This document shows positions 41,484-59,003 of a DNA stretch of 64,000 nt, piece by piece. Source of the stretch: Neorhizobium galegae (GTDB taxonomy: Bacteria > Pseudomonadota > Alphaproteobacteria > Rhizobiales > Rhizobiaceae); the NCBI RefSeq assembly GCF_017877135.1, contig NZ_JAGIPH010000002.1:310001-374000 (forward strand), given 5' to 3'. The number at the start of each line of letters is the position of its first letter. Position 1 is the stretch's first letter. Under the pieces are notes generated by a model. It had not been told where the DNA came from. It was given only the letters and a program-made list of their open reading frames with translations, and did no database searches. A program made the position numbers and the translations under genes.

Positions 41484-42215
41484 TCAGACTGGATTGATCA
41501 GGCGCAGGCTTATCGCTTTGGCGATGGCTTGGGGAATGTTCGCACAGGACAGCTTAAAGCGTGCAGACTTCAGATATCCTCTGGCTGTGTGGTCTGAGAT
41601 GCCCAGGATGCAGGAAATGTCTTTGTATTCCTTGCCCAAGGCTGCCCAATGAAGGCATTCCCTCTCGCGCCGGCCAAGTGGTGGTGCCGGATCTTCCTTG
41701 CCATAGAGTTCAACTAACGCCTTTGTGTGCAAGCCGTGTGCGAGTTCAAGCCAGTGAGCTCTGTAGTGCACGACGAGGGCTGACCACTGATCTTGCGGCA
41801 TGTCAGTATTGAGCGATACGAGGGCTCGGCGGCCACACCTATCAATGATTGGTATTGCATAGCCTGAAATTCCGAGACCATGCTGCGTGGCGTCCTCGAA
41901 CAGTCGCTGAGTCGCGGGGGTTACCTCCAGCTCGCTCCAGAGAAATGGCAGGCTCCTTGAAACGCCCTCAATTAGAACGGGATCAATGTTGAAGTAGCCT
42001 TGCTGCAGGTATCTGCTGACCCAGTTCGGCGGGTACGTCGTTCTGACGAATGGTGCGTCTATCCGAGACGCTATGGTTTGTGCCATGTGGTAGGTCACAT
42101 GCGAGAGCTTATAAGCATCTCTCAATAGAATTATCGAAGCTGCGACATCTGTCGCATGCTGAATAGCTACGAAGGTTTGTTCAAATAACTCCCGTGCATA
42201 GGTTTTTTCGTCCAT
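41484..42215 (-). CDS. cinR: LuxR-family quorum-sensing regulator (CinR-like)
   Basis: A 243-residue LuxR protein with an N-terminal autoinducer-binding domain (YPPNWVSRYLQQGYFNIDPVLIEG holds the W-x3-Y...D pocket residues and LPFLWSEL the second Trp) and a C-terminal HTH (LGRRERECLHWAALGKEYKDISCILGISDHTARGYL). It lies 89 bases upstream of the AHL synthase on the same strand. As in the cin system, it would bind the AHL and activate the synthase operon. Confidence 0.85.
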   Translation of the reverse strand: MDEKTYARELFEQTFVAIQHATDVAASIILLRDAYKLSHVTYHMAQTIASRIDAPFVRTTYPPNWVSRYLQQGYFNIDPVLIEGVSRSLPFLWSELEVTPATQRLFEDATQHGLGISGYAIPIIDRCGRRALVSLNTDMPQDQWSALVVHYRAHWLELAHGLHTKALVELYGKEDPAPPLGRRERECLHWAALGKEYKDISCILGISDHTARGYLKSARFKLSCANIPQAIAKAISLRLINPV

Positions 42216-42651: not shown

Positions 42652-43959
42652 TCATTCCGGATAGGGCAGGCGGTAGCGGTCGCGGATGGTGCGGCCTTCG
42701 TAGTCGCGGGGGTAGACGCCGCGATCCTGCAGGATCGGCACGACTTTCTCGACGAATTCCTCGATATCGTCCGGCGCGCGTGGCGGCTGCAGGGTGTAGC
42801 CGTCCACGGTTCCGTCCTCCCAGAGATCGATGATCTGGTCTGCCACCTCTTCCGGCGTGCCGAGGACGAGGCGGTGGTGACCTTCCGAACGGCGTACGGC
42901 CTCACGCGCCGTCAGCCTTTCGTAGGTGAGCAGGTCCGACAGGCCAAGCCCCATGCCGACCGCCCATTGGCGGTTCTGATCCGGCACGAAACGCTCGGCT
43001 TCCAGCACGGCATCGGGATCGAAGGTCGCGGGATCAATGCCGTTTTCCCTGGCGAAACGGGCAAGCAGCCCGTCTTCGGAACCGGTGCCGCTGAACAGTT
43101 CGTGCTTGCGCAGCGCCTCTTCTCGGGTTTCGCCGATGATGGCGACGAGCCCCGGCACGATGCGGATGCCCGACGGGTCGCGGCCAACTTCGACGGCCTT
43201 GTCCTTCACCTTCTTGCCGAAAGCCTGTCCGGCCGGGCGGGAGAGGATGTTGCAATAGATGATTTCGCCGTGGCGTGCGGCAAGTTCGATGCCGCCTTCC
43301 GAGGCGCCCGCCTGCGCGATGACCGGGTGCCCCTGCGGGCTGCGCGGCACGTTGAGCGGCCCCCGCACCTGGAAGAATTGCCCCTCGTGATCGATGGTGT
43401 GCGCGCTCGATGCATCCCAGAAACGATCCGGCGGAACCTCACCTTCACGACGCGGATCCCAGCTTGCCCAGAGCTTTTTCGCCACATCCAGGAATTCGAT
43501 GGCGCGCGGATAGCGCTCGCTGCGCGGCGGTAGGGGCGCGTTGCTGAAATTGGCCGCCACATTCGGGTTAAAGGAGGAGACGACGTTGACGATCAGCCGC
43601 CCGCCGGAGACGATATCCAGCGACTGCACCCGCCGCGCCAGATTATAGGGCGAATTATAGGTGGAGGTGATCGTGGCGACAAAGCCGATATCCGGCACCT
43701 GGGCCGAGAGTGTCGTGCAGAGGATCAGCGGGTCCAGCGTGTGGAACGGGCGGCTCAGTGGGTCCGTCAGCAGGGCCGGGTGATCGGAGAAGAAGACGGC
43801 ATCGAACCGCCCCTTGTGCGCAAGCTCCGTCAGGCGGCGATAGTAGTCAGGGTCGTTGATGTCATGCCGGTCACCGGTGCGGTATTTCCAGGCATTGGCC
43901 AGATAGCCGGTTGTGTTGATGCCGACATTCAGGTTCAGCCGTCTCTTTGTCTCAGTCAT
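42652..43959 (-). CDS. FMN-dependent monooxygenase, NtaA/SnaA/DszA family
   Basis: A 435-residue luciferase-like (TIM-barrel) monooxygenase using FMNH2 from a separate reductase. Family landmarks: LNVGINTTGYLANAWKYR, FDAVFFSDHPALL, TITSTYNSPYNLARRVQSLDIVSGGRLIVNVVSS, PRSPQGHPVIAQAGASEGG and the C-terminal ILQDRGVYPRDYEGRTIRDRY. These enzymes cut sulfones (DszA), nitrilotriacetate (NtaA) or sulfides (DmoA). Its start overlaps the stop of the DszC/SfnB-like gene (ATGA), which points to the sulfone-type step. It is the last gene of the leftward unit. Confidence 0.88.
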   Translation of the reverse strand: MTETKRRLNLNVGINTTGYLANAWKYRTGDRHDINDPDYYRRLTELAHKGRFDAVFFSDHPALLTDPLSRPFHTLDPLILCTTLSAQVPDIGFVATITSTYNSPYNLARRVQSLDIVSGGRLIVNVVSSFNPNVAANFSNAPLPPRSERYPRAIEFLDVAKKLWASWDPRREGEVPPDRFWDASSAHTIDHEGQFFQVRGPLNVPRSPQGHPVIAQAGASEGGIELAARHGEIIYCNILSRPAGQAFGKKVKDKAVEVGRDPSGIRIVPGLVAIIGETREEALRKHELFSGTGSEDGLLARFARENGIDPATFDPDAVLEAERFVPDQNRQWAVGMGLGLSDLLTYERLTAREAVRRSEGHHRLVLGTPEEVADQIIDLWEDGTVDGYTLQPPRAPDDIEEFVEKVVPILQDRGVYPRDYEGRTIRDRYRLPYPE

Positions 43960-45203
43960 GCTTTGGCTTTTTCTCTTTCAGGATGAATGCCGACGCCCAC
44001 TTGCGGGGAGGGCAGTGTGCCGTTGATGGCAAAGTCGCCGACGACACGATCATGGTAGATGCGGGGGTTATGGGAGGTGATGGTGCGGGCATTGCGCCAG
44101 TGGCGGTCGAGACCATGGCTCTTCTTGGCCGCCGACGCGCCAAGCGCATCGAACAATATCGTTGTGGCCTCGAGTATCAGGCTGGAGACGACGGTGACCG
44201 ACTGGCTGACCTCCAGTTCGGCATCGCGGTTGGCGCGCGCAATGGCCTCGGTGTCTCCGGTCAGATTGGCCGCATGCGCGCGCTGCAGCGCGTCGGCGGC
44301 CTTCAGCACGATGGCGCCGGCCGCATAGGCGGCGCTGCGCACGCGACCGACAACCTGCAGGATCTGCGGGTCTTCACCGGGGAGGGTGGCGTTGCTGCGC
44401 GCATAGACGCGCCGCCGCTCCGCCACCAGCCCCGCCACTTCCGTGGCAGCTGCCCGGCCGATGCCTGCCAGCGAGGCGAGATGCACCAACTGGAAGAAGC
44501 CACCGGAATAGGAGAAACGCAGCGCGCTCGGCTTGATCAGGTCATTGCTGATCTCAACATCGGCGAAACGCGCGGTGCCGCTTGCCGTCAGCGACTGGCC
44601 AAACCCATCCCAGTCATCGATGATCTCGACGCCTGCCGCTCTGGTCGGCACGAGTGCGCCGATCGGATGGCCATCGCCGTCCACGGCACCGAGCGTGATC
44701 CAGTCGGCATAGAGCGAGCCGGTCGTGTAGAATTTCTGGCCGTTCAGCAGCCAATGATCGCCGTTGCGGATGAGCTGGGTGGAGTAGCTGCCAAGGGGCG
44801 CATTGCCGATCTCGGAAAAGCCGCTGCCGATGGTTTCGCCCGCCGCAAGCTTCAGAAGCCAGCGATCCCTCCAGTCGCCGGGCGGCGCGTTCAGAAGATC
44901 TTCGGTGAAGCCGAGATGGCTGCGATAGGCATTGGTGAGGTTGGGATCGGCTTCTGCCAGCTCGATCAGCAGGCCGAAGAGTTCCGGCAGCGTCAGCTCC
45001 GCGCCACCGATTTCTTCCGGCAGCCGCAGGACCGAAAAGCCTGCGTCCTTGAGCCGCCGATATTCCGCAAAGGGAAGCGTGCGGGCCAGATCGCGTTCGA
45101 TGGCGCCGGCATGAATATCGGCGAAGATCGGCCGAAACCGGCTCGCAATGGCGTCGAATCGTTCGCTTGGCGCAGCACCCCAGGCGTTGGCAATGTCGGT
45201 CAT
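43956..45203 (-). CDS. DszC/SfnB-like flavin-dependent monooxygenase (acyl-CoA dehydrogenase fold)
   Basis: A 415-residue protein with the acyl-CoA dehydrogenase fold but of the DszC/SfnB group, which oxygenates organosulfur compounds with reduced flavin. RSHLGFTEDLL and the C-terminal HWRNARTITSHNPRIYHDRVVGDF correspond to the DszC catalytic-His region (the H in T-x-H-N-P). There is no catalytic glutamate of true dehydrogenases that I can see. The ribosome site is GGGAGGA. It is coupled to the following DszA-like gene. A paralog is at 55704-56948. Confidence 0.85.
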   Translation of the reverse strand: MTDIANAWGAAPSERFDAIASRFRPIFADIHAGAIERDLARTLPFAEYRRLKDAGFSVLRLPEEIGGAELTLPELFGLLIELAEADPNLTNAYRSHLGFTEDLLNAPPGDWRDRWLLKLAAGETIGSGFSEIGNAPLGSYSTQLIRNGDHWLLNGQKFYTTGSLYADWITLGAVDGDGHPIGALVPTRAAGVEIIDDWDGFGQSLTASGTARFADVEISNDLIKPSALRFSYSGGFFQLVHLASLAGIGRAAATEVAGLVAERRRVYARSNATLPGEDPQILQVVGRVRSAAYAAGAIVLKAADALQRAHAANLTGDTEAIARANRDAELEVSQSVTVVSSLILEATTILFDALGASAAKKSHGLDRHWRNARTITSHNPRIYHDRVVGDFAINGTLPSPQVGVGIHPEREKAKA

Positions 45204-45385: not shown

Positions 45386-46471
45386 TCAGGCCGCCGCCCG
45401 TTTCTCGGCGTTGAAGTCGTGGAGCAGAAGCGCGATCTCAAAACCCCGGCGAGCCAGCCAATGGGCGACAATCCGGGCGCGAGCGCCGAGAGAATCGTCG
45501 ACCAAGATAACCCGCGCTCCGCGCACCGAGAGTGTGCGATAGGCGACACCCAGCAGCTGCCCACCTTCCGACGAGATGGAGTGCGGCAGATGATCCGCCG
45601 CAAATTCCTCCGGCGTGCGCACGTCGAGAAGATAGGTTGTCCGCTCCGGATCGGACGTCCAGGCTTTCGCTGTTTCGAGGTCGATGAAGGTCAGCTGATC
45701 GTCCTTTGACAAGGTGGCGAGATGGTCCTCCGCAAACCGCACCGCCTGATCGCTGGCTTTGCCGAACGTGGCCGTCAGGCCCTGTTCCAGCCCAAAGCCT
45801 GCTTCCGTCCAGCCGCGTGTTCCCTCGTCCAGATAGGCCACGAAGTTCTCCACCCCGGCATCGATCAGCGTCTGGGCGCCGAGGATTGCGCGCGGCAGGC
45901 CGGCGCAGGAAACGACCACTTTCGTCTGCGGGTTCGGCACGCTGTCGCGGAAGCGCAGCAGAAGCTCCGCGCCGGGAATGGCGACCGCGCCCGGCACATG
46001 GCCCTTCTCGAATTCCGGCAAAGTGCGCGTGTCGATGACGATCACATCTTCACCGGCATCGCGCCAGGCCTGAAGTTCGGCTGCGAAAACGACGGGTGTC
46101 TGCTTTTCGTCGCGGATCTTTTTCACGAAAGGCACGCCCGGCACATCGAAGGTGGGCAGGTTGTCGGTTCCCTTCTCGGTCCAGGCGGGAATGCCGCCCT
46201 TCAGGGCATGAAGATCGCCCCAGCCATTCTTCGACAGCGCCTCGGCAGCTGCGACCGCGGCTCCCTTGCCGTCGTCCACGAGCACGGTGCGGATCGAGCG
46301 GCGGGGGATGAAGCGATCGATCTCGGCAAACAGCCGGTCCGCCGGCAGATTGGTGGCAAACAGCGGCGAGGCATAGCCGACCTCATCTGCGGGGCGAATA
46401 TCGAGAACCGCAAGTTCCCGGCGATCCGCCAGCCAGGCGGCGAAAGTCTTCTTGTCGATCTGATGTGTCAT
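45386..46471 (-). CDS. Triple-rhodanese sulfurtransferase-like protein
   Basis: A 361-residue cytoplasmic protein with three tandem rhodanese domains: about 1-110, 125-240 and 255-355. Only the middle domain keeps a catalytic cysteine, in VVVSCAGLPRAILGA; the equivalent loops of the first (VLVDDGKGAA) and third (VILVDDSLGARA) have aspartate. Rhodaneses move sulfane sulfur as a persulfide. It sits 11 bases downstream of the peptide-type binding protein gene on the same strand, so it probably handles sulfur from the imported compounds. Confidence 0.85.
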   Translation of the reverse strand: MTHQIDKKTFAAWLADRRELAVLDIRPADEVGYASPLFATNLPADRLFAEIDRFIPRRSIRTVLVDDGKGAAVAAAEALSKNGWGDLHALKGGIPAWTEKGTDNLPTFDVPGVPFVKKIRDEKQTPVVFAAELQAWRDAGEDVIVIDTRTLPEFEKGHVPGAVAIPGAELLLRFRDSVPNPQTKVVVSCAGLPRAILGAQTLIDAGVENFVAYLDEGTRGWTEAGFGLEQGLTATFGKASDQAVRFAEDHLATLSKDDQLTFIDLETAKAWTSDPERTTYLLDVRTPEEFAADHLPHSISSEGGQLLGVAYRTLSVRGARVILVDDSLGARARIVAHWLARRGFEIALLLHDFNAEKRAAA

Positions 46472-46482
46472 TTCGCTCTCCT

Positions 46483-48093
46483 TCAGACGCCCGGTTCCAG
46501 CCAGATGTCGCCAAAGCTCCAGTTGAGGCCCTGGGCGCCGGTGACGAAATTCTTCACGCGCTTGTTGGCGACGATCTGGCTGCCGGCGGCGACGAGATCG
46601 ACGGAGGCCACCTCGTCATGGATGAGATGCTGGAAGCGGCTCCACAATTCCCAGCGCTTTTGCGGGTCCGACTCGATGGCGGCGGCCTCCAGCAGGGCAT
46701 CCGCCTGCGGATTGTCGTAATGGGCGGCATTCGAGAAGGGCAGGCCGATCTTGAAGTTCTTGCTCCAGTAGGCGCGCTGGATGCCGAGCGTCGGATCAAA
46801 CGTGTTCGACAGCGATTCCACCACGAGATCGAAGGCCCGATCCGTGTAGACCGTCTTCAGGAAGGTCGGCAGGTCGTATTTGCGGATCTCGATGCCGATG
46901 CCGATCTTTTCCAGCTGGCTGCGGATCACATCGGCGTAGCCTGGCACCAGGTAGGAATTGTAGGTCAGCCGCAGTTGAAAGCGCTTGCCATCCGCCTTGC
47001 GCGGAAAGCCCGCCTTGTCGAGCAGCGCTTCTGCCGCCTTGGGATCGTAGGGGTGGGCGGTGATCTTGGAATCATACCAGTTCGGCAGGGCTGTGCTGAC
47101 GGGGCTGGGCGACACCTGCCCATAGCCGTAGAGCGCGACATTGACGATTTCCTGCAGGTTGATCGCCTTGGCGATGGCAAGACGGACATCCTTGTTGCGC
47201 AGCAGCTCGGTATCGTAATTGAAGAAAAGCTGCTGTTGCGGGCCCGCATAGGCATAGGTCGTGGTATCGACCACCAGATTCTTGTTCTGCTTCAGGCGCT
47301 CGATGTCCGCCAGCGGCACCGGGTTGTCGCCAATATCGGCCTCCCCCGTTTCCAGCGCCACGGCACGGGCTGCGGGGTCGGTCACGATGCGCAGCACGAC
47401 GCGGTCGAGATAGGGCTTGCCCTTGTCCCAGTAGTTGGGGTTCTTCTCGAAGATCAGGTGACTGCCCGGTACCCATTCGCTGAGCTTGAACGGACCGGTG
47501 CCGATGGCGGTCTTCAAGGTCTGGCCGTCGCCGGGCGGCAGTTTTTCGAAAATGTGCTTCGGGACGATCGGGGATTCGGAGCTCGACTGGGCCGCCAGCA
47601 GGAAGGGAGCGGGCTTGGAAAGCACGATAACGGCGGTCAGCGGGTCCGGCGTCTCGACGGCCACTACGTTCTGGTAGGTGATGCGGCCGCGCGGATGCGC
47701 CTCCTTCAGGCGGAAGATGGAGAAGGCCACGTCTTCGGAGGTGAAATCCGCGCCGTCATGCCACTTCACGCCGGGCCGGAGCTTGAAGGTGTAGCGTAGG
47801 TTATCCGGGGAGATCGACCATTCGGTCGCCAGAAGCGGCTGCGGCTTCAGATCGAAATCGAAGGTCAGCAGGCCTTCGACGATTTTCGGCCCGATGGCCT
47901 GCCCGGTGCCGGAGGAGGTGTTGATGGCAAACAGCGCATTGCCCGGATCGACGCGGTAGAGAAGCTTCAGCGTTCCGCCGGAGACGGGCTTTGCCGTCTG
48001 CGCCGATGCAAAGGACGGTGACAGCAAGGAGAGGGAGGTTCCGGCCGTGGCAGCCAGCAGCAGGCTGTTGAAGGCGCGTCTTGAAAATGACAT
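46483..48093 (-). CDS. ABC transporter substrate-binding protein, SBP_bac_5 family (Tat-exported)
   Basis: A 536-residue periplasmic binding protein of the DppA/OppA family. The N-terminus MSFSRRAFNSLLLAATAG has a twin-arginine signal. Family landmarks are EGLLTFDFDLKPQPLLATEW, KLRPGVKWHDGADFTSEDVAFS and GTGPFKLSEWVPGSHLIFEKNPNYW. It is a clear paralog of the binding protein at 62235, and no permease gene adjoins it, so it may share the DppBCDF-like importer 12 kb away. First gene of the leftward rhodanese-DszC-DszA unit. Confidence 0.92.
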   Translation of the reverse strand: MSFSRRAFNSLLLAATAGTSLSLLSPSFASAQTAKPVSGGTLKLLYRVDPGNALFAINTSSGTGQAIGPKIVEGLLTFDFDLKPQPLLATEWSISPDNLRYTFKLRPGVKWHDGADFTSEDVAFSIFRLKEAHPRGRITYQNVVAVETPDPLTAVIVLSKPAPFLLAAQSSSESPIVPKHIFEKLPPGDGQTLKTAIGTGPFKLSEWVPGSHLIFEKNPNYWDKGKPYLDRVVLRIVTDPAARAVALETGEADIGDNPVPLADIERLKQNKNLVVDTTTYAYAGPQQQLFFNYDTELLRNKDVRLAIAKAINLQEIVNVALYGYGQVSPSPVSTALPNWYDSKITAHPYDPKAAEALLDKAGFPRKADGKRFQLRLTYNSYLVPGYADVIRSQLEKIGIGIEIRKYDLPTFLKTVYTDRAFDLVVESLSNTFDPTLGIQRAYWSKNFKIGLPFSNAAHYDNPQADALLEAAAIESDPQKRWELWSRFQHLIHDEVASVDLVAAGSQIVANKRVKNFVTGAQGLNWSFGDIWLEPGV

Positions 48094-48491
48094 GGGCGCA
48101 GTCTCCTGTGAACGAGGGGCAATCCGATCGTCAGAGCATCACGAAGCCTCGCCGAATTCAGAAGAATGAATTTCTTTATGGAGCAGTAAAATTTCCTGTG
48201 TCCGGTAGAATTTGCTAGGATCGAGGGTGATCTGGCCCTTTTCAGTTCGTCTGAGGGCTCGCCGCGAGTTTGCCGAACCTCACCATTTGGCGTCCGCGCC
48301 ATTTGAGAAAAATCAGCCGAACCGCCATTGCGCCCGAACGGCCGAAATGATCTTTCATCCAGCCTCATGCTGTTGGGAGGAAATTCCTCGGCAAGGCGGC
48401 AAGTCGGAGTTTTAGTGAGCGTGACAGAGGACGGCAGCCCAAGCGCGCTCGCTGGCCATTGAAGAGAAATCCATTCAGGCGAGGACATTTC
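48094..48491. promoter_or_regulatory. Divergent promoter region of the sulfur cluster
   Basis: 398 bases between two outward-facing units. An AT-rich block at 48155-48220 has several AATTT/GAATTT motifs (GAATTCAGAAG, GAATGAATTTC, TAAAATTTCC, TAGAATTTGC) at roughly 10-20 base intervals, as expected for LysR-type sulfur regulators such as CysB. No exact consensus is assigned. Confidence 0.4.
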
Positions 48492-49352
48492 ATGACATCG
48501 ACAGTTTTACGGCAGATATCCTCGCAGGATGGCGAGGTGGATCGAGAGACACTTTGGCAGGCACGGTATGGTCGGGCACCGGTTCCGGCCCTGCCTTCCG
48601 AGTGGAACGAAACGCTCGAGGTCCTGCTCAGCCACCGAAGCTCGCGCAATTATCGCGCTGATGCCTTGCCAACCGGTACGGTCGAACTGCTGGTGGCCGC
48701 CGCCCAATCGGCGCCGACCTCGTCCAACCTTCAGGCCTGGAGCGTGATTGCCGTGGAAGACCCGGAGCGGAAAGCCCGGCTTGCGGGCTTTACCGGCGGC
48801 AATGCCCATATTCTGGCGGCCCCGCTTTTCCTGGTCTGGCTGGTCGATCTGTCACGCCTGAGGGAGATTGCCCGCCAGCATGGCAACAGTGGCGAAGGGC
48901 TCGATTTCCACGAGAGCTTCCTGATCGGCGCGATCGATGCGGCGCTTGCCGCGCAGAATGCGGTGGTGGCCATCGACTCGCTCGGGCTCGGTTCCTGCTA
49001 TATCGGCGGCATGCGCAACCAGCCGGAAGATGTGGCCCGCGAACTGAAGCTGCCGCCGGAAACGGTTGCCGTCTTCGGCCTGACCGTCGGCTATCCGGAT
49101 CCTGCGGTGGAAACGGATGTGAAGCCGCGCCTGCCGCAATCGGCCGTCCTCTTCCGCGAAGAGTATGGAACAATCCGCCCGGAGGATCTCGCCTCCTATG
49201 ATGACGCCATGAAGGCCTTCCAGCAGAAGCAGAAGCTGCCGCTCTCCGGCTGGACCAGCGTGATTGCCAAGCGCATCGAAAACGCAGCGGCGCTCAAGGG
49301 GCGCTCGCAGCTCACCGCCATTCTGCGGCGGCTTGGATTCCCTCTGAAGTAG
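48492..49352 (+). CDS. Nitroreductase-family flavin oxidoreductase
   Basis: A 286-residue FMN enzyme of the nitroreductase superfamily (NfsA/FRP-like). Landmarks are LSHRSSRNYRADALPTGTVELLVAAAQSAPTSSNLQAW at the FMN site and LGSCYIGGMRNQPEDVARELKLP toward the C-terminus. Enzymes of this group can supply reduced flavin to partner monooxygenases, and no other flavin reductase is in the cluster, so a DszD-like role is plausible. The start at 48492 has GCGAGGA upstream. A strong terminator follows. Confidence 0.85.
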   Translation: MTSTVLRQISSQDGEVDRETLWQARYGRAPVPALPSEWNETLEVLLSHRSSRNYRADALPTGTVELLVAAAQSAPTSSNLQAWSVIAVEDPERKARLAGFTGGNAHILAAPLFLVWLVDLSRLREIARQHGNSGEGLDFHESFLIGAIDAALAAQNAVVAIDSLGLGSCYIGGMRNQPEDVARELKLPPETVAVFGLTVGYPDPAVETDVKPRLPQSAVLFREEYGTIRPEDLASYDDAMKAFQQKQKLPLSGWTSVIAKRIENAAALKGRSQLTAILRRLGFPLK

Positions 49353-49583: not shown

Positions 49584-50639
49584 ATGGCGCAGGCCGCTCC
49601 CCGTCTTTCCTCTGCACCGTCCTCGGTGTGGTATACGCGCTGCCCGGCGCCGACGCCGCTTTCCATCGCGGCCCAGCTGGGTTGGGTGGACCAGGCGTTT
49701 TCCCGCCACCGGATCGATGTCACGTCTATTCGGGATTCCGCCGATCCAAAAATCCGCCAGAGCCATTTCGACCATCATCTCGACTGGTCGTTCCGTCAGG
49801 GCGGCAATATTCCGCCGATTTGGGCGCGATCCGGCGGGCGCCGCACCCGTCTCGTCGGCTTGACGCGGACCGATGAATTTCAGGCGGTGATCACGTTGCC
49901 GCATCTCGGCATTCGTACTGGCGCAGACCTCAAGGGACGAAAGCTCGGGCTGCCCCGCCGTCCCGGCGATATCATCGACTTCCAGCGGGCAACCTCCTTG
50001 AAGGGCATCGTGTCGGCGCTGGAAATTCATGGTCTGGCGGCTGCCGACGTGGAGCTGGTGGATCTGGTCGCGCAGTCCTCCAGCCCCGGTTCGAGCGCGG
50101 ACGCCTCGACCTTTACGCCGCGCCGCAAGCTTCCCTATGGCGAGGAGATCGCGGCACTGCATCGCGGCGAGATCGACGCCTTCTTCGTCAAGGGGGCGGA
50201 GGGTGTCACCGTCGCCAGCCTGATCTGCGCCCATATCGTGGTCGAGACGGGTTTTCACCCGGACCCCAAGATCCGCATCAACAACGGCACGCCGCGCCCC
50301 CTGACGGTGGATGCGACCTTTGCCGACGAGCGCCCGGATCTCGTGGCGGAATTGATTGCCACGATCCAGCGCGTGGCCGACTGGGCCGAACAGCATCCGT
50401 CGGACGCCGTCCGCTTCATCGCGAATGAAATCGGTGTCAGCGAGGATGCGGTCCGGACCGCCAATGGTCCCGAGGTTCACCGCCATCTGGCGCTGACGCT
50501 CGACAGGGACGAGATCGATGCCATCGCGCATTTCAAGGATTTCCTGCTGGAATGGAAGTTCATTCCGGAAAACTTCAACGTCGAAAACTGGGTGGATCCG
50601 CGCCCGCTGGCGCTGGCGCATCTGCGTCAGCCTTTGTGA
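49584..50639 (+). CDS. DszB-like desulfinase (SBP fold, cytoplasmic)
   Basis: A 351-residue protein of the NitT/TauT binding-protein fold but without a signal peptide. It matches the DszB pattern: YTRCPAPTP (C20) as in the YSNCPVP of DszB, and HFDHHLDWSFRQGGNIPP (H61, R71) as in the HF...R-x-GG-x-IPP of DszB. The His-Arg spacing is ten, identical to H60-R70. DszB cleaves an aryl sulfinate to release sulfite. The C-terminus (ALHRGEIDAFFVKGAEG, FLLEWKFIPE) also aligns. It heads a unit with the NmrA-like and SfnG-like genes. It could be annotated as an ABC binding protein; I consider the enzyme role more likely. Confidence 0.78.
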   Translation: MAQAAPRLSSAPSSVWYTRCPAPTPLSIAAQLGWVDQAFSRHRIDVTSIRDSADPKIRQSHFDHHLDWSFRQGGNIPPIWARSGGRRTRLVGLTRTDEFQAVITLPHLGIRTGADLKGRKLGLPRRPGDIIDFQRATSLKGIVSALEIHGLAAADVELVDLVAQSSSPGSSADASTFTPRRKLPYGEEIAALHRGEIDAFFVKGAEGVTVASLICAHIVVETGFHPDPKIRINNGTPRPLTVDATFADERPDLVAELIATIQRVADWAEQHPSDAVRFIANEIGVSEDAVRTANGPEVHRHLALTLDRDEIDAIAHFKDFLLEWKFIPENFNVENWVDPRPLALAHLRQPL

Positions 50640-50648: not shown

Positions 50649-51524
50649 ATGCCATCCTCCATCCTTGTCACGGGTGCCACGGGCCGGCTCGGCCAGCTGG
50701 TGACGCGCCGTTTGATCTACAGCGGTGATCGTGTCCGCGTCCTGACACGCCGCCCCGACGAAGCAAAGCGGCTCTTTAACGGCGCGGTCGATATCGCTCA
50801 AGGAGACTTTGGAGACCGTTCAAGCCTGATGACGGCCTTGAATGGCGTCGAGCGGGTCTTTCTTCTGTCTCCGATCAGCGCCAATCTTGGCGCCCACCAG
50901 ACCGCTCTCATCGATGCGGCAGCCGATGCGGGCGTGCGCCATATCGTGAAGATCTCGGGCTCGACCTGGACGATCGAACATTCCGACCGCTCCACGGCCG
51001 GTGCGCAGCACCGAAAGGTGGAGGCGCATCTTGCCGCGCGCGGTCTTTCTCATGCGATCATCCGTCCCAATGCGTGGATGCAGGTGTCCCTGGCGCCGGT
51101 CATTGCCGCCGCTCTGGCCGGCCGCGATCTGCCGGGTCGCTATGCGGGCGCCGCCGTCTCCTTTATCAACATCAACGACATTGCCGATGTCGCCGCGCGT
51201 GTGTTGCATTCCGGGTTGAACGTCAGCGAACCGCTGGTGCTGACCGGCGCGAAAGCCTTCACCACCTCGGACATCGCAGGCCTCGTCTCCGCCATTCTGC
51301 GCCGCCCCGTCGGCATCGATACGCAAGCGGTCGCTGTCTCCCCCGGACACGACGATACGTTTGCGGCGCAGGCGGTGCGGGAGTTTGGCGCCCTCATTGC
51401 AGAAGGACTGGCCGCGCCGGTGACCGACACCGTCGAGCGTATGTTGGGGCGCAGGCCCATCAGCCTGCGCCATGTGCTCGAACAGGCGCTCATGCCTTCG
51501 AAACGTAATGCCGAAACAGGCTGA
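50649..51524 (+). CDS. NmrA-like NAD(P)-binding oxidoreductase (SDR)
   Basis: A 291-residue atypical short-chain dehydrogenase with the Rossmann motif ILVTGATGRLGQLVTRRLI and the NmrA/quinone-reductase-like body (VKISGSTWTIEHSDRSTAGAQHRKVE, RPNAWMQ). Such proteins reduce quinones or act as NAD(P) sensors. It begins 9 bases after the DszB-like stop and ends 12 bases before the SfnG-like start, so it is clearly part of the operon. The substrate in this pathway is unknown. Confidence 0.85.
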   Translation: MPSSILVTGATGRLGQLVTRRLIYSGDRVRVLTRRPDEAKRLFNGAVDIAQGDFGDRSSLMTALNGVERVFLLSPISANLGAHQTALIDAAADAGVRHIVKISGSTWTIEHSDRSTAGAQHRKVEAHLAARGLSHAIIRPNAWMQVSLAPVIAAALAGRDLPGRYAGAAVSFININDIADVAARVLHSGLNVSEPLVLTGAKAFTTSDIAGLVSAILRRPVGIDTQAVAVSPGHDDTFAAQAVREFGALIAEGLAAPVTDTVERMLGRRPISLRHVLEQALMPSKRNAETG

Positions 51525-51536: not shown

Positions 51537-52706
51537 ATGGCAGTGACGGCTATTCAGGCCACCGGCGCGGAATTGAGGGCGCCATCGGATTTCGAGGAAA
51601 GTCCGCTCAGCCGGGCGACGCGCCAGCCGCTGATGCTGGGGCTGTTTCTCAATCTGCAGGACATCAACTTCTCCAGCCTGCCGACCAGCAACAGCTGGAC
51701 CTTCGATTACAACGCGGAGCTGGTGAAGCGGGCGGACGAGTTGGGTTTCGAGATCGCCTTCAGCCGCACGCAGTGGCTGCCCAAGGGCGGCTATGACGGC
51801 GAATCCTCGCTCGACAGTTTTATTGCACTCGGCGCCATGGCGGCGATCACCAAGAACATCCTGCTCATCTCGACGATCCATGTGCTGTACGGGCCGCTGC
51901 ACCCGCTGCATCTGGCCAAATATGGTGCAACACTCGATCATATCGCCAAGGGTCGCTGGGGCATCAATATCGTCACCGGCCACCGCGCCATCGAGCATGA
52001 GATGTTCGGCTGGCAGCGCATCGACCACGACAAGCGCTACGAGATGGCCGCTGAACTCTTCGAGGTGCTGCACCATCTCTGGGGCAAAACGGAAAACTAC
52101 TCCTTTGAGGGCAAGCTCAATCCCTGGTCGGTCAACAATGGCTGGATCACGCCGAAGCCGCTGTTCGGGCGTCCCAACCTCGTCACGGCCACCGGTTCGC
52201 CGGCGGGCATTGATTTTGCCGCGCGCCATTCGGATCTCGTCTTCGTCACGTCTCCGGGCGGCGCGCATATCGAGAGCGCCCTGGAGACGCTGCCTGCTCA
52301 TATCCGGACGGTAAAGGATCGCGCCAACGCCTATGGCCGGAGCGTGAAAACCATCATCAACCCGATCATCGTCAGCCGCGATACGCAAGCGGAAGCGATT
52401 GCCTATGCCGATGCGATCGAGGCAGGCCGGCCGCAGCCGGGCACGCGCGCCTTTGCCACCAACAATTACGACAGCGATGCCCATGCCTGGCGCGGCCGCG
52501 GCGATGCCCGCCACAAGCAGGGCCGCAATCTCGGCGGCAATATCGAGATCATCGGCTCGCCGGAACAGGTGGTCGAGCAACTCATCGGTCTCAAGAAGGC
52601 GGGCATCGATGGCGTCCAATTGAATTTCTACGATTTCCGCGAGGACCTTGAATACTTCGCAGAACGCATCTTGCCTTTGATGAAGGAGGCCGGCCTGCGC
52701 CTCTAA
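51537..52706 (+). CDS. LLM-class flavin monooxygenase, SfnG/SsuD-like
   Basis: A 389-residue luciferase-like monooxygenase. Landmarks are WTFDYNAELVKRADELGFEIAFSRTQW, YGPLHPLHLAKYGATLDHIAKGRWGINIVTGHRAIEHEMFGW and EIIGSPEQVVEQLIGLKKAGIDGVQLNFYDF near the end. The layout is closest to SfnG (dimethylsulfone monooxygenase) and SsuD (alkanesulfonate monooxygenase), both of which cut C-S bonds with FMNH2. Third gene of the DszB-like operon; a textbook terminator follows about 80 bases later. Confidence 0.86.
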   Translation: MAVTAIQATGAELRAPSDFEESPLSRATRQPLMLGLFLNLQDINFSSLPTSNSWTFDYNAELVKRADELGFEIAFSRTQWLPKGGYDGESSLDSFIALGAMAAITKNILLISTIHVLYGPLHPLHLAKYGATLDHIAKGRWGINIVTGHRAIEHEMFGWQRIDHDKRYEMAAELFEVLHHLWGKTENYSFEGKLNPWSVNNGWITPKPLFGRPNLVTATGSPAGIDFAARHSDLVFVTSPGGAHIESALETLPAHIRTVKDRANAYGRSVKTIINPIIVSRDTQAEAIAYADAIEAGRPQPGTRAFATNNYDSDAHAWRGRGDARHKQGRNLGGNIEIIGSPEQVVEQLIGLKKAGIDGVQLNFYDFREDLEYFAERILPLMKEAGLRL

Positions 52707-52816: not shown

Positions 52817-52968
52817 GCGTTTCCGGCCACTTCCTGATGCCATTCAAACGAGGACGGCGTGCGCAATTTTTTTCTTCTTGATGCGCCAATATTGATTGCT
52901 GGACCGAAGCGCAATCCAGCTTCAAGCTGCATGCAGAGTTGAATTTTCCAATATGGATGGCGCATTGC

Positions 52969-53307
52969 ATGGCAAAGGACAGGCTCTTCCTCATCGCTCC
53001 CGGCTTTGAAGATCCGAAGTATCCGGGCACGGTCTTCGTCTGCCCCTACTGCAACCAGGTGGAAGGCCTGCTCGCGAGTTTTCCCGCTCTTGCGCAGAAG
53101 ATCGAGGTCAACCGGGTCGGTTTTCTGCGCCCGAGGGCGGACGTGATTGCCGTGGTCGGCGAGGAAAACCAGTCGCTGCCCTTGCTGGTGCTGGGCGACA
53201 ATCCACCGGAAGACGCGCGTGAGGCTGGCGGTGTTCATTTTGTGCAGGACACGAAGCGCATTCTCGATCTTCTGGCGGAGCGCCACGGCTTTCCCCGCCT
53301 GCATTAA
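52969..53307 (+). CDS. DUF3088 thioredoxin-fold protein with CPYC motif
   Basis: A 112-residue protein: MAKDRLFLIAPGFEDP, then VFVCPYCNQVEGLLASFP, a glutaredoxin-like CPYC placed after the first strand, and NQSLPLLVLG, which resembles the cis-proline loop. The end LLAERHGFPRLH is typical of DUF3088. A redox or thiol-transfer role is inferred from the motif and fold only. The start at 52969 matches the family; in-frame 52957 and TTG 52939 are alternatives. It has its own promoter after the terminator and precedes the DszA-like gene by 27 bases. Confidence 0.75.
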   Translation: MAKDRLFLIAPGFEDPKYPGTVFVCPYCNQVEGLLASFPALAQKIEVNRVGFLRPRADVIAVVGEENQSLPLLVLGDNPPEDAREAGGVHFVQDTKRILDLLAERHGFPRLH

Positions 53308-53334: not shown

Positions 53335-54687
53335 ATGACAGTGCCGTCACGCTCGCTTGTTCTGAACGCTTTCATCTATCCGGCCGGCCATCACGAGGCG
53401 GCCTGGCGCTATCCGGCGTCCGAGCCGCATCGGGTTACCGACATCAAGCTCTATCAGGAGATCGCCCAGAAGGCCGAGGCTGCCAAGCTGGACGCGATCT
53501 TCTTTGCCGACGCGCCGGTTCTCGATGAGAACATCCGTTATGCGGCGCGCCACCGGCTGGAACCGATCACGGCCATCACGGCGCTGGCCGCCGTCACCGA
53601 GCGGATCGGTTTCATCGCCACGGCCTCCACGACCTATTACGATCCGTACAATCTCGCGCGGCTGTTTGCGTCGGTGGACCATATCAGCGGCGGACGCGTG
53701 GGATGGAATATCGTCACCACCTCGGCTGATCGCGCGGCGGCCAATTTCGGGCTGGAGAAACACCCGCCGCATGCCGACCGTTACCGGCAGGCGGCGGAGT
53801 TTGTCGATGTCGTCACCAAGCTCTGGGACAGCTGGGAGGATGACGCGCTGGTGGTCGATCCGGCAAGCGGTCTGTTTGCCGAGACAGATCATATCCATGC
53901 CATTCATCACAAGGGCGAGTTCTACAGCGTGCAGGGCGCGTTGAACCTGCCGCGCTCGCCGCAGGGGCGTCCGGTCTACGTGCAGGCGGGCTCCTCCGAT
54001 GATGGCCGGGCCTTTGCCGCGCGCACTGCGGAAGCGATCTTCACCGCGCATCAGTCGCTCGAAAGCGCGCAGGAGTTCTATGCTGATATCAAGAGCCGCG
54101 CGCGGGGCCAGGGTCGCAATCCCGATCACGTCAAGATCCTGCCGGGCCTCAGCCCGTTTATCGCTTCCACGGAAGCAGAGGCCAAGGCGCTGGAGGACGA
54201 GTTCAACAATCTCATCCAGCCGGCCTTCTCGCTCCAGCAACTGCGCCGCATCATCGGCGTCGATCTCTCCGGCGCGGATCTCGATGCGCCGGTGCCGAAG
54301 GAAGCCGTGGACGCGACACGGGCCCGTGCTGCTGCCAGCCGCCATCAACTGGTGCTGGATGTGATCGACCGGGAGAAGCCGACGTTGCGTCAGTTGTTGC
54401 ACCGGCTTGCGGGCGCGCGTGGCCACAAGGTCATTACCGGCACGCCGGAGCAGGTGGCGGACTGGATCGAGCTTTGGCACCTCAGTGGTGCTGCCGACGG
54501 CTTCAACATCATGCCGCCTTACCTGAAGGGCGGGTTCGAGATCTTTGCCGACGAGGTCGTGCCGATCCTGCAGCGGCGCGGGCTGTTCCGTCTGGATTAC
54601 GAGGGCAAGACGCTGCGCGATCATTATGGGCTGCCGCGGCCGGAGAGTCTCTACACGGCGGGAAGAAACCGCAAGGCGAGCGCATAA
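53335..54687 (+). CDS. FMN-dependent monooxygenase, NtaA/SnaA/DszA family (second copy)
   Basis: A 450-residue luciferase-like monooxygenase. FDAIFF-type strand LDAIFFADAPVLDENI, TASTTYYDPYNLARLFASVDHISGGRVGWNIVTTSA, LPRSPQGRPVYVQAGSSDDGRAFAA and the tail ILQRRGLFRLDYEGKTLRDHYGLPRP mark the DszA/SnaA group. It is paralogous to, not a copy of, the enzyme at 42652. Ribosome site AAGGATG. It is co-transcribed with the DUF3088 gene and faces the LysR gene. Confidence 0.88.
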   Translation: MTVPSRSLVLNAFIYPAGHHEAAWRYPASEPHRVTDIKLYQEIAQKAEAAKLDAIFFADAPVLDENIRYAARHRLEPITAITALAAVTERIGFIATASTTYYDPYNLARLFASVDHISGGRVGWNIVTTSADRAAANFGLEKHPPHADRYRQAAEFVDVVTKLWDSWEDDALVVDPASGLFAETDHIHAIHHKGEFYSVQGALNLPRSPQGRPVYVQAGSSDDGRAFAARTAEAIFTAHQSLESAQEFYADIKSRARGQGRNPDHVKILPGLSPFIASTEAEAKALEDEFNNLIQPAFSLQQLRRIIGVDLSGADLDAPVPKEAVDATRARAAASRHQLVLDVIDREKPTLRQLLHRLAGARGHKVITGTPEQVADWIELWHLSGAADGFNIMPPYLKGGFEIFADEVVPILQRRGLFRLDYEGKTLRDHYGLPRPESLYTAGRNRKASA

Positions 54688-54729: not shown

Positions 54730-55686
54730 TCAGTGAGCAGAGGAGGGGAAGCCCTTTGCTTCCTGATGCAGAAGTGCAAACAGCGCTTCCACCTGCGGCA
54801 GGCGGCGGCGATCATCGGAGGCGATGAGATAATAGGGCGACGAGACGGGAATGGCGCGACCAAGCGGGCTCACCAGGCGGCCCGTCTGCAACTCGGCCGA
54901 GACGAGCGAATGTCTGGCCAGCGCGATGCCGCTGCCCGCCAACACCGTTTCGATCAATGCCGGAATGCTGGTGAGGCGCGGCCCCTTGCCGGATAGCCGC
55001 ACCGGAAAGCCGCAGGCCCGCAGCCATCGTGGCCAATCGAGTTCGGGCTCCGCCTGCGCGTCGTAGATCACAGGCACGTCCCGCAGACGATGCGCGCCCT
55101 CCTGCAGTTCATGCCGCGCTGCAAAGGCCGGCGTGCAGACGGGCAGAATGCTGTCGGGCAGCAGCAGTTCGCAGTGGTGTCCCGCAAGCGGGTAGCTGAG
55201 CGGCAGGATGGCGCAGTCCGCCTCCAGCCGGGCAAGGTCCGCCTCGCCGGAGATGGATCGTTCGATCACCAGATCGGTGTCCCCGATGCCTTCGTTGAGG
55301 AGATGCAGGCGCGGCGCCAGCCAGCGGCTGGCAAAGGCATCATCCACCATGAGCCGGAGCGTCGTACGCCGGCCCTGCGCATAGAGCGCGCCCAGACTGT
55401 CGACGATGGATTCGAAGGCGGCAGACAGGCCCGGATAGAGCGAGGCGCCGGCGGGCGTCAGCACCAGTTCGCCGCGGTTGCGGCTGAACAGCACTTCGCC
55501 CAAATGGGTTTCCAGCAACCGGATCTGCTGGCCGATCGCAGCCGTCGTGACGTGCAGGTCCTCGGCAGCCTTTGAGAAGCTGGCATAGCGTGCCGTGACC
55601 ACGAAGGCCCTCAGCGCCGTCAGCGGCGGCAGCCGGGAAAGCCCCGGCAAGGGTTGGGTCGCTCGAAGGATGGCTGACTGTCCCAT
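54730..55686 (-). CDS. LysR-family regulator (GcvA-like) of the sulfur cluster
   Basis: A 318-residue LysR regulator. The HTH is in PPLTALRAFVVTARYASFSKAAEDLHVTTAAIGQQIRLLETHLG and the effector domain is of the GcvA/AmpR subgroup (RLMVDDAFASRWLAPRLHLLNE). It lies 17 bases downstream of the DszC-like gene and is the last gene of the leftward importer unit, so it is made together with the genes it may control. Confidence 0.88.
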   Translation of the reverse strand: MGQSAILRATQPLPGLSRLPPLTALRAFVVTARYASFSKAAEDLHVTTAAIGQQIRLLETHLGEVLFSRNRGELVLTPAGASLYPGLSAAFESIVDSLGALYAQGRRTTLRLMVDDAFASRWLAPRLHLLNEGIGDTDLVIERSISGEADLARLEADCAILPLSYPLAGHHCELLLPDSILPVCTPAFAARHELQEGAHRLRDVPVIYDAQAEPELDWPRWLRACGFPVRLSGKGPRLTSIPALIETVLAGSGIALARHSLVSAELQTGRLVSPLGRAIPVSSPYYLIASDDRRRLPQVEALFALLHQEAKGFPSSAH

Positions 55687-55703: not shown

Positions 55704-56948
55704 TTAGAAAACGCGGCCTTCGAGAAGATGCGTCTTGGTGCCGTTGAGGTAGAAATCGCCGACCACGCGCGCCTTGTGCAGCAGCGGATTGTGATTGTAG
55801 ACGGTGCGGATGTTGCGCCAGTAGCGGTCGAGGTTGAGGTCGCGCGAGGTGGCGGAGCCGCCGCCCAGTTCGAACACCTTGGTCGCGGCCGAAAGCGCCA
55901 GCTGCGCGGTCACGATCTGGACGCGTGACGTGGTCAGCGCGCTGTCCGTCAAAGCCTGTTCGATTGCCTCTTCATCGCCCGTGGCGAAGGCTGCGACGGT
56001 TCGATCAAGTGCGCCGGCTCCCTCGCGAATAAGGGTTTGCACGGCAAAGGCTGCCGCACTCAGCTCTCCCACCACATTCTGGACGAACGGATCCTGGGCT
56101 GCGGTATCGGCGGCACTGTGGGCTGCGGCGCGTGCCTGTTTCTGGACATAGCGGATGCCTTCCTCCACCGCGCCCTGAACGGCGCCGGCGGCGGATGCCG
56201 CCAGATGCAGCTGCCGCATCGTGGAGCAATGACGCCCGACCAGCGATCCGAGCGTCCGGTTGGAAATCTCATGCGCATGGACAAGAACGTTGTCCAGGAG
56301 AACGCCGCCGCTGGCCGTCATCCGCTGGCCCATGCCGTCCCAGTCATCCAGAACGGTCACGCCTTCGCGCGTGACGGGCAGGAGACTGTAGGCCGGGTTT
56401 CCGTCATCATCCAGGGCACTGAAGCTGGCGAAATCGGCAAAGGCCGTGCCCGTCGCATACCACTTGCGGCCGTTGAGCCGAAAATTCTCGCCGTCACGCG
56501 TCAGCCGCGTGGTGATCTCGCCGGGCTTGTGCGTGCCCTGTTCGGTATGCGCGCCGCCGAACAGTTTGCCGTCCAGCACATGTGCAAGCAGCGTGCGCTC
56601 GCGTTCGCCCTGGATGCCGCCCAGCACCAGTCCTTCGGTGAAATTGAAGTGGCTGCGCAGGGCATGCGGCACATTGCTGTCGGCCGCACCCAGGATCATC
56701 AGCACCTCGATGTAATCGCGGATGCTGCCGCCGGGACCGCCAAGCGCCTTCGGAATGCGCAGCGTCCCGAGACGGGCCTGCTTGATCTGTTCAAATATGT
56801 CGAAGGGCAGAACCCGCTCGCGCTCACGCCGGGCCGCATCCTTGGCCAGATCGGCAGCGATCCGTCGCGCACTTTCGATCAACTCCTCGCGGGAGAACGG
56901 AGAGGTGGGTACGGGATCGGCAGAGAGGGATCGAAGCGTGCTGGGCAT
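55704..56948 (-). CDS. DszC/SfnB-like flavin-dependent monooxygenase (second copy)
   Basis: A 414-residue protein with the acyl-CoA dehydrogenase fold, paralogous to the one at 43956. RSHFNFTEGLVLGGIQG and the C-terminal YWRNIRTVYNHNPLLHKARVVGDFYLNG again keep the histidine and the W-x-N-x-R frame of the DszC group. It probably carries out S-oxygenation with free reduced flavin. It is 66 bases downstream of an aldo/keto reductase on the same strand; the ribosome site is weak. Confidence 0.84.
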   Translation of the reverse strand: MPSTLRSLSADPVPTSPFSREELIESARRIAADLAKDAARRERERVLPFDIFEQIKQARLGTLRIPKALGGPGGSIRDYIEVLMILGAADSNVPHALRSHFNFTEGLVLGGIQGERERTLLAHVLDGKLFGGAHTEQGTHKPGEITTRLTRDGENFRLNGRKWYATGTAFADFASFSALDDDGNPAYSLLPVTREGVTVLDDWDGMGQRMTASGGVLLDNVLVHAHEISNRTLGSLVGRHCSTMRQLHLAASAAGAVQGAVEEGIRYVQKQARAAAHSAADTAAQDPFVQNVVGELSAAAFAVQTLIREGAGALDRTVAAFATGDEEAIEQALTDSALTTSRVQIVTAQLALSAATKVFELGGGSATSRDLNLDRYWRNIRTVYNHNPLLHKARVVGDFYLNGTKTHLLEGRVF

Positions 56949-57014: not shown

Positions 57015-58070
57015 TCAGGCGACAGCGCGCGGCGCCGCAGCAACCGGTGCGGTTGCTTTCACAGCACGCGGCACGCGGCCTTCCACCGGATGGCTCGGAT
57101 CGTTGAAGCCGGGCGTGGAGGGGTGGCCGGTCGTCACGAGGCTGTCGATCAAAGCTTCGTCTTCCGCATCGATCTGCACATCAAGCGCGCGGATATAGCC
57201 GTCCCAGTGCTCTTCGGTGCGCGGGCCGGTGATGGCAGCCGTGACCAACTGGTTGTTCAGCACCCAGGCGAGCGCGAAATCGGCGGCCTTGATGCCCTTG
57301 CGGGCGGCATGCGCCCCGATCTTCTGGGCGATCTCGACCGATTCCGGGCGCCATTCCGTCTCCAGAATGCGCTTGTCGCCACGGCCGGCGCGACTATCGG
57401 CGGCCGGTGCTGCGCCCGGCTGATACTTTCCGGTCAGCACGCCGCGCGCCAGCGGCGAATAGGAAACGACGCCGAGGCCATAATGATGCGCTGCCGGCAG
57501 TTGTTCGGCTTCTGCCGTGCGGTTGACGATGTTGTAGAGCGGTTGGCTGGCAACGGGACGATCGATGCCGAGCTGGTCGGCCAGATGTGAGATTTCCGCA
57601 ATGCGCCAGCCACGGAAGTTGGACACGCCGAAATAGCGCAGCTTGCCGGCGCGGATGAGGTCGGCAATGGCGCGCACCGGCTCTTCCAGCGGCGCATCGA
57701 ACACGGCCCGATGGAAATAGAGAATGTCGATGTAGTCGGTGTTCAGGCGCCGCAGCGAGTTTTCCACCGTCTCGATGACCCATTTGCGCGAATGGCCACC
57801 GAGGTTCGGGCCCTTCACATGCGAGTTGACGAATTTCGTCGCCAGCACCCAATGGTCGCGATGCGCCTTGATGCCGCGCCCGACGACCTCTTCGGACTTA
57901 CCGTTGTGGTAAACATCGGCGGTGTCGATGAAGTTGATGCCCTGGTCCTTCGCCTTGTCGATGATGCGGAAGGCCACGTCATCCGGCGTTGGGCCGCCGA
58001 ACATCATGGTGCCGAGGCTCAAGGGTGAAACCTTCAGCGCGCTGCGGCCAAGGTAGCGATAATCGACCAT
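57015..58070 (-). CDS. Aldo/keto reductase
   Basis: A 351-residue NADPH-dependent aldo/keto reductase (AKR). The catalytic tetrad context is complete: NFIDTADVYHNGKSEEVVG (Asp, Tyr), LATKFVNS (Lys) and ILYFHRAVFD (His). The cofactor loop is AAITGPRTEEHWDGYIRAL, and the C-terminus carries an Ala/Pro-rich tail. It is inside the importer-DszC-LysR unit and may reduce carbonyls left after C-S cleavage. Confidence 0.9.
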   Translation of the reverse strand: MVDYRYLGRSALKVSPLSLGTMMFGGPTPDDVAFRIIDKAKDQGINFIDTADVYHNGKSEEVVGRGIKAHRDHWVLATKFVNSHVKGPNLGGHSRKWVIETVENSLRRLNTDYIDILYFHRAVFDAPLEEPVRAIADLIRAGKLRYFGVSNFRGWRIAEISHLADQLGIDRPVASQPLYNIVNRTAEAEQLPAAHHYGLGVVSYSPLARGVLTGKYQPGAAPAADSRAGRGDKRILETEWRPESVEIAQKIGAHAARKGIKAADFALAWVLNNQLVTAAITGPRTEEHWDGYIRALDVQIDAEDEALIDSLVTTGHPSTPGFNDPSHPVEGRVPRAVKATAPVAAAPRAVA

Positions 58071-58090: not shown

Positions 58091-59003
58091 TCAGTTTGTA
58101 TGATGGCAGGCGACCGCATGGGCGGTGCCGAAGAGACGGTAGTCTGGCGCCTCACTGCGACAGAGATCGGTGGCCAGCGGGCAGCGGGTATGAAACCGGC
58201 AGCCGGAGGGCGGATCGTGCGGGCTTGGCAGGTCGCCGGAAATGGGGGCTGCTTCTCTGCGGCGGCTGGGATCCGGCACGGCGGCCAGAAGCGCGCGGGT
58301 ATAGGGATGCTTCGGATCTGCCCAGAGCTCGGCGGTCGGCGCGCTTTCGACGATCTTGCCGAGATACATCACCAGCACCCGGTCGGAGAAATAGCGCACC
58401 ACGGACAGATCGTGCGAGACGAAAAGATAGGAGAGCGACAGCCTGTTCTTCATCTCCACCAGCAGGTTCAGGATCTGCGCCTGGATGGAGAGATCGAGCG
58501 CCGAGACCGGCTCGTCGCACACCACCAGTTCCGGCTGAAGGATCAGGGCGCGGGCGATGCCGATGCGCTGCCGCTGCCCGCCGGAAAACTCGTGCGGATA
58601 GCGATCGAGCGAATCCGCCGGCAGGCCGACCTGAAGAATGATGGACTCGACGATCTGCTGGCGGCGTTTTGTATCGCCGATGCCATGAACCTTCAGCGGC
58701 GCCGTCAGGATCGCCCGGATCGTCTGGCGCGGATTGAGGGACGCAAACGGGTCCTGAAAGATCATCTGGATGCTGCGGCGAAGACTGCGCAACTCGCCGG
58801 ACGTCATGGCGGTCACATCCCGGCCCTTGAATTCCACCTGTCCGGATGTTGGCTCGACCAGGCGCATCAGCGATTTGCCGAGCGAGGATTTGCCGCAGCC
58901 GGATTCGCCCACCAGCGCCACGGTTTCGCCCGGCTCGATGGTGAGCGAGACGTCATCGACGGCGCGCACGGTGCCGCGCCCACCGGCATAATGGGTGGAG
59001 AGA

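Follow-up and report, generated by a model that had tools for sequence, protein, structure and literature searches.

The gene studied here lies in a 64,000-nt stretch of the Neorhizobium galegae genome (hereafter the window), in which an ORF at positions 49584-50639 of the forward strand encodes a protein of 351 residues. The gene belongs to a putative sulfur-scavenging island (42652-63842) that reaches almost to the end of the window. The genes are listed below, with the basis of each assignment in brackets.

42652-43959, reverse strand: NtaA/DmoA-family LLM monooxygenase (NCBIfam)
43956-45203, reverse strand: SfnB/DszC-type acyl-CoA-dehydrogenase-like protein with no cysteine or internal methionine (below model cut-offs)
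45386-46471, reverse strand: rhodanese-domain protein (three matched stretches, Pfam)
46483-48093, reverse strand: family-5 (Opp/Dpp) substrate-binding protein (Pfam)
48459-49352, forward strand: NfsA-type nitroreductase, by its presumed role a candidate flavin reductase (below NCBIfam cut-off)
49584-50639, forward strand: predicted DszB-like sulfinate desulfinase, 351 aa (sequence, alignment, model and profile)
50649-51524, forward strand: NmrA-like NAD(P)-binding protein, 9 bp downstream of the predicted desulfinase gene (Pfam NmrA)
51537-52706, forward strand: SfnG-like FMNH2-dependent monooxygenase of the LLM type, 12 bp downstream of the NmrA-like gene
53335-54687, forward strand: NtaA/DmoA-family LLM monooxygenase (solved relatives YtnJ, the best, and DszA)
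54730-55686, reverse strand: LysR-type regulator (domain match)
55704-56948, reverse strand: SfnB/DszC-type acyl-CoA-dehydrogenase-like protein (solved relatives TdsC, MsuC and DszC; below cut-offs)
57015-58070, reverse strand: aldo/keto reductase (domain match)
58091-62064, reverse strand: Opp/Dpp-type ABC transporter, two ATPases and two permeases (annotated relatives; Pfam only for 60994-62064)
62166-63842, forward strand: second family-5 substrate-binding protein (domain match)
63869-64000, forward strand: start of a second DszB-like gene, a 55% identical paralog that exits the window (complete as L006:7869-8918)

The monooxygenase names used for the island were given by similarity, with scores under the cut-offs of the SfnG, SfnB and DszC models. 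The closest solved relative of the 51537-52706 product was a dimethylsulfone monooxygenase (8t0u, E 1.2e-42), and its score against NCBIfam SfnG was 184 bits, under the cut-off of 383. The product of the 55704 gene scored 132 bits against the DszC model, for which the cut-off is 850, and two LLM genes exceeded the NtaA/DmoA subfamily cut-off. SfnG-type enzymes convert a sulfone to a sulfinate and an aldehyde, and the SfnG-like LLM protein is a candidate for the enzyme that makes the sulfinate. Based on their spacing, we infer that the NmrA-like gene and the DszB-like gene share an operon, and the aldo/keto reductase could reduce the carbonyl left after C-S cleavage. Outside the window, the second DszB-like gene is followed by an SfnB/DszC-type gene. 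A DUF3088 protein is encoded between two LLM genes inside the island (52939-53307), and genes for a LuxI-type autoinducer synthase (Pfam) and a LuxR-type regulator (40735-42215, reverse strand) lie directly before the island.

The earlier note had held that no SsuB/SsuC-type ATPase or permease was available to serve a binding protein, and no such genes were found in the 64,000-nt window. A broader statement that the cluster has no transporter is overstated, as the window contains the Opp/Dpp-type transporter and two family-5 binding proteins. Beyond the window, a Tau/Ssu-type transporter that has a TauA of its own is located approximately 18 kb from the DszB-like gene and approximately 3.9 kb from the second paralog, and this TauA passes its own NCBIfam model (322.8 bits versus 304.25).

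C20 and C215 are the only cysteines of the 351-residue protein, which lacks internal methionine. Residues C20, H61, R71 and G73-G74 are in register with C27, H60, R70 and G72-G73 of DszB, and the H-x9-R spacing of H61 and R71 is exactly that of H60 and R70. All three residues named in the earlier note, and the DszB-like spacing of the histidine and arginine, were therefore present in the ORF, although the motif written there as HF-x9-R is in fact HF-x8-R, with eight residues between HF and R. The ATG at 49584 is the sole in-frame start codon from the preceding in-frame stop to the motif, and it is 13 residues ahead of the first strand in the predicted structure (residues 14-19). Inspection of the start codon and of hydropathy found no export leader, as had been proposed.

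A phmmer comparison with PDB chains returned DszB (2de2) as the top match, with an E-value of 1.6e-14, followed by SsuA at 0.15. Because the match to DszB was full-length (residues 12-340), the likeness extends beyond the motif, with the two proteins sharing only 25% identity. A profile of 26 relatives likewise matched DszB with an E-value of 3.3e-32 (114.8 bits), versus 2.1e-6 for the best SsuA (29.9 bits, over a short stretch). At the level of family models, the protein matched the Pfam NMT1/THI5-like domain, a fold-level family, at 25.8 bits versus a gathering score of 20.5. Its score against NCBIfam SsuA_fam was 73.6 bits, below the cut-off of 163.5 and similar to that of an annotated DszB (65.4). 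Thi5, the HMP synthase, has a CCCFC iron motif, which is missing from the 351-residue protein.

The family set was collected by similarity to the 351-residue protein and includes near-copies. In a tree of 70 rows, 44 relatives and DszB were placed on one side of a branch with an SH-aLRT support of 99; DszB was positioned outside the 44 relatives, and long branches were flagged. Removal of the motif columns (69 rows) gave the same split with a support of 78, which is below significance.

The AlphaFold2 model of the protein, produced from a 26-sequence alignment, had a mean pLDDT of 89 and a pTM of 0.87. The overlay on DszB suggested in the earlier note was borne out at the level of the fold, as the DszB-sulfinate complex 2de3 was the top VIA-align match to the model (Z 31.4, rmsd 3.1, 311 residues), followed by apo DszB (Z 30.0), versus a Z of 24.8 for the best SsuA. 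Thi5, MqnD and 4,5-dihydroxyphthalate decarboxylase were lower-ranked matches. DszB was also first by Foldseek E-value (2.4e-21, versus 1.3e-15 for the best SsuA), whereas the Foldseek TM-scores were tied, with 0.73 for SsuA 3uif (rmsd 3.6) and 0.72 for DszB (rmsd 5.3). A helix in the model spans residues 55-63 and includes H61. Residues 55-62 of DszB are described as turning helical upon substrate binding, bringing H60 in (PMC6100217).

Residue conservation was determined in an alignment of 46 proteins, comprising the 44 relatives, the annotated DszB of a Mycobacterium plasmid and DszB itself, after rows from L001, L002 and L008 (duplicate loci of the N. galegae genome) had been removed. The cysteine was conserved in 45 of the 46, the histidine in 44 and the arginine and glycine pair in all 46, so that the R-x-G-G motif was kept throughout; for the 44 relatives alone the counts were 43, 42 and 44 for the cysteine, histidine and arginine, respectively. 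Both losses of the histidine were in relatives, one of which lacks the cysteine too. Burkholderia arboris has three family genes, one of which (L056:7231-8304, reverse strand) encodes serine in place of the cysteine and isoleucine in place of the histidine while retaining R-x-G-G, and is possibly a non-catalytic copy.

By contrast, none of 23 binding-protein controls, a non-random sample made up of the weaker matches in the searches that yielded the family (L003 and 22 of L030-L052), had the cysteine, histidine or arginine at the aligned positions; the arginine column was a gap in all 23 and the cysteine column in one. The controls have a hydrophobic leader ahead of the first strand, with the exception of the L037 control, which could not be judged. 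Members of the family start 6-22 residues upstream of the first-strand point and have no hydrophobic leader, although three of 45 family rows (L006, L023 and L054) overlap the control hydropathy range through stretches that are mostly ahead of the chosen start codon.

The residues surrounding the catalytic set differ from those of DszB. At the position of Ser25, the DszB residue with its hydroxyl bonded to H60 (PMC6100217), 41 of the 46 proteins have threonine and three have alanine. The DszB N26 position is arginine in 43, Y63 is histidine in 42, Q65 is leucine in 37 and E74 is asparagine in 40. Across 26 proteins, R19, H64 and N75, the equivalents of N26, Y63 and E74, are invariant. Since the positions beside the catalytic residues (N26, Y63 and Q65) are mostly arginine, histidine and leucine, the substrate of the 351-residue protein, judging from sequence, probably differs from that of DszB.

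The island proteins, apart from those of the Opp-type transporter, contain little cysteine and methionine. Pooled cysteine and methionine contents of 13 island proteins, a set that excludes the four Opp-type transporter proteins, were 0.21% and 0.45%, versus 0.87% and 2.46% for a comparison set of 23 genes picked by hand from the region 1380-42215. The difference was significant by Mann-Whitney test for the 13 proteins (p 1.7e-6) and for all 17 island genes (p 7.1e-5). Two island proteins, a 415-aa monooxygenase-like protein and a 536-aa binding protein, have neither cysteine nor any methionine beyond the start. DszB itself is reported to have one cysteine and no methionine, and a desulfurizing strain to restrict cysteine- and methionine-rich proteins (PMC8557817). 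Among the 44 relatives, 39 have exactly one cysteine, three have two and two have three, with a cysteine at the DszB C27 position in 43. A cysteine kept amid such sulfur economy is likely to be functionally needed, as far as sequence can indicate.

Relatives of the 351-residue protein were surveyed in 32 genomes or records, including N. galegae, with gene types assigned by similarity to a bait set and with several loci only about 4 kb long. Within 4 kb of a family gene, an LLM gene was found in 27 records, an acyl-CoA-dehydrogenase (ACAD)-type gene in 18, either in 30 and both in 15. An SsuB/C-type gene was within 4 kb in five of the 32, one of them the N. galegae genome by way of its second paralog, and an Opp/Dpp-type importer within 10 kb in 15. 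Two or more family genes were present in 20 of the 32 records; overlapping loci inflate gene counts in four genomes, each of which still has at least two distinct places. Pairs of paralogs flank a DszC-type gene in Ensifer, on S. meliloti pSymA, at four Devosia loci and in Chelatococcus, Neorhizobium and a Rhizobiales isolate. These are followed by genes for an FAD monooxygenase, a reductase and an LLM protein, with Opp-type transporter genes upstream. The order LLM, DszB-like, ACAD, which matches dszA, dszB, dszC, was found at L024, L025 and L055. Three DszB-like genes of Sphingobium sp. TomTYG65 (L054:5471-12311) are annotated as monooxygenases, one of them as soxB, and adjoin an ssu transporter that has a separate ssuA.

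Monooxygenase neighbors alone were rejected as proof of function, as nine of the 23 loci of control binding proteins (all of L030-L052) also carried such genes when 4-kb loci were compared, versus 11 of 13 family loci (counted without the duplicates or overlaps L057, L058, L064 and L066-L069). SsuB/C-type genes were present at two of the 13 family loci and 15 of the 23 control loci, and because monooxygenases are also found near controls, the absent transporter partner distinguishes the two groups better.

The distribution of the family is patchy. Strong matches (best E-value of 1e-45 or lower) were identified in at least seven of 397 genomes of the order, with at least 38 matched at an E-value of 1e-3, the remainder being weak. 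In a survey of the phylum at least seven of 398 genomes had matches at 1e-30; the N. galegae genome and one other were in both surveys. The expectation that automatic annotation would label the protein an ABC binding protein was confirmed for relatives in Ensifer canadensis, Sinorhizobium meliloti and Rhizobium acidisoli. With relatives labelled in this way, a sulfur-scavenging route of this sort would be easily overlooked, and among the matches listed for open-access full text, none that treated the proteobacterial family as desulfinases was found. Chelatococcus asaccharovorans carries the cluster (L020). The DszB peptide of a desulfurizing Chelatococcus is, as printed, identical to Rhodococcus DszB (PMC4839641), and is for that reason uninformative on the DszB-like family; the identity raises the question of whether the identification reflects the organism's own enzyme.

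Based on these analyses, we consider it likely that 49584-50639 encodes a cytoplasmic DszB-type sulfinate desulfinase with a type-II periplasmic-binding-protein fold that would end a 4S-like route used in sulfur starvation. The preference expressed in the earlier note for a desulfinase over a NitT/TauT binding protein was supported by sequence, profile and residue conservation relative to the controls, and was further favored by cysteine economy, the missing leader and the context of transporter partners. The tree and the fold comparison agreed with it, subject to the reduced support of the tree without motif columns and to the tie with SsuA on TM-score.

In the proposed route, an SfnB/DszC-type flavin monooxygenase would convert an imported organosulfur compound to a sulfone, and an SfnG/DszA-type LLM monooxygenase would cut one C-S bond to produce a sulfinate plus a fragment bearing a carbonyl or hydroxyl group. 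In the DszB-like protein, C20 would then protonate the carbon of the C-S bond while H61 and R71 keep the sulfinate in place, and sulfite would leave. Turnover, cofactor independence, the order of the steps and the choice of sulfinate are the parts of this scheme that we infer. In DszB, the C27S mutant is described as inactive and H60Q as approximately 17-fold reduced, with R-x-G-G conserved among DszB homologs; H60 is assigned a role in stabilizing the thiolate, and R70 and G73 in bonding the sulfinate (PMC6100217). The mechanism proposed there is electrophilic aromatic substitution, and calculations favor a step in which C27 gives its proton to the ring carbon and SO2 is lost; the cysteine sulfur is reported to be about 4 angstrom from the histidine nitrogen when DszB is closed (PMC6100217). 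The economical reading, by analogy, is that C20, H61, R71 and G74 take the roles of C27, H60, R70 and G73. Aromatic substitution fits aryl, and possibly vinyl, sulfinates better than alkyl ones, for which it need not be suitable.

An enzyme of the same fold with other chemistry, for instance with a sulfonate or thiosulfonate as substrate or with a different leaving group, would account for the invariant R19, H64 and N75 where DszB has N26, Y63 and E74, and the fold does include other enzymes (Thi5, MqnD and 4,5-dihydroxyphthalate decarboxylase). We nonetheless consider this unlikely, given that the DszB catalytic set is in register, that threonine mostly substitutes for Ser25 and that a neighboring gene resembles a monooxygenase that produces sulfinate.

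A substrate-binding protein of the NitT/TauT or SsuA type, serving an ABC importer without turnover, appears very unlikely. The conserved cysteine in otherwise nearly cysteine-free proteins and the absent leader are both at odds with such a role, the SsuA_fam score is far under its cut-off and near that of the annotated DszB, and DszB is nearer than SsuA by sequence, profile and VIA-align Z. In addition, the nearby TauA passes its own model where this protein does not pass SsuA_fam, and the window has no SsuB/C. What speaks for a binding protein is the Pfam NMT1 match above its gathering score, the similarity to SsuA_fam, SsuA 3uif being level with DszB on TM-score, the annotation of relatives and the SsuB/C-type genes in five of the 32 records.

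A conventional DszB function, with 2'-hydroxybiphenyl-2-sulfinate as the substrate in the dibenzothiophene 4S pathway, is hardly credible, even with DszB as the closest characterized relative and relatives of DszA and DszC nearby, in view of the 25% identity, the tree position outside the DszB pair, the changes at positions 26, 63 and 65 and the low DszC model score of the 55704 neighbor.

Returning to the desulfinase, we speculate that the family represents a separate branch, proteobacterial as sampled and mostly hidden under binding-protein names, whose often paired paralogs (flanking a DszC-type gene in several genera) carry polar or non-aromatic sulfinates, vinyl or alkyl ones, through the final step of a 4S-like route. 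In this view every paralog would have a sulfinate of its own and the chemistry would go beyond aromatic substitution. This broader proposal is tentative and, as a whole, rather doubtful. Such a branch might also explain the benzothiophene desulfurization of Sinorhizobium sp. KT55, a strain cited in PMC3868597 as a desulfurizer with no genes named in the excerpt; ascribing that activity to the cluster is a guess.

DszB is described as the slow step in biological fuel desulfurization (PMC12168087, PMC6100217, PMC4839641), and a branch at 25% identity that has kept the active site and changed its surroundings would provide fresh starting points for enzymology. It would also be a test of what makes a binding-protein fold catalytic. 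A number of soil and root-nodule bacteria, among them S. meliloti, which has such genes on its symbiotic megaplasmid, may use organosulfur compounds as sulfur sources through a pathway currently annotated as transport.

Several known systems can be compared with the N. galegae locus. A Gordonia strain described as having SfnB-type genes and no DszB analog in the excerpted text of PMC11852219 bears on the neighboring genes only, and a sulfolane-degrading Rhodoferax (PMC6395730), for which the excerpt reports no dszB, was set aside as irrelevant. IGTS8_peg4802, a protein annotated as DszB, is entered as "SsuA/DszB" in a table of the dibenzothiophene proteome, where it is grouped with alkanesulfonate transport genes under sulfur acquisition (PMC8557817). 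Binding proteins of the SsuA/TauA type share the type-II binding-protein fold (SsuA Z 24.8), but differ in having an export leader and no Cys/His/Arg set, and are more often beside SsuB/C-type genes than is the family.

The closest system is DszB itself (PDB 2de2, 2de3 and 2de4), with which the 351-residue protein shares a full-length match, the fold, the Cys/His/Arg/Gly set and the lack of an export leader, and three of its relatives share the dszABC-like gene order. The family differs in having T-R-C-P where DszB has S-N-C-P, in the replacement of Y63 and Q65 by histidine and leucine, and in the frequent presence of two or more paralogs (20 of 32 records) and of Opp/Dpp-type importers nearby. 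The bdsABC genes of Gordonia terrae C-6 encode a desulfinase, BdsA, described as having low similarity to DszB, beside DszC- and DszA-like monooxygenases, and the cloned operon converted benzothiophene to o-hydroxystyrene, an activity described for bdsABC extracts (PMC3868597). BdsA is actinobacterial and is likened to the DszB-like family by this description. A divergent desulfinase is thus already reported in Gordonia terrae, and the 351-residue protein is not a new kind of system.
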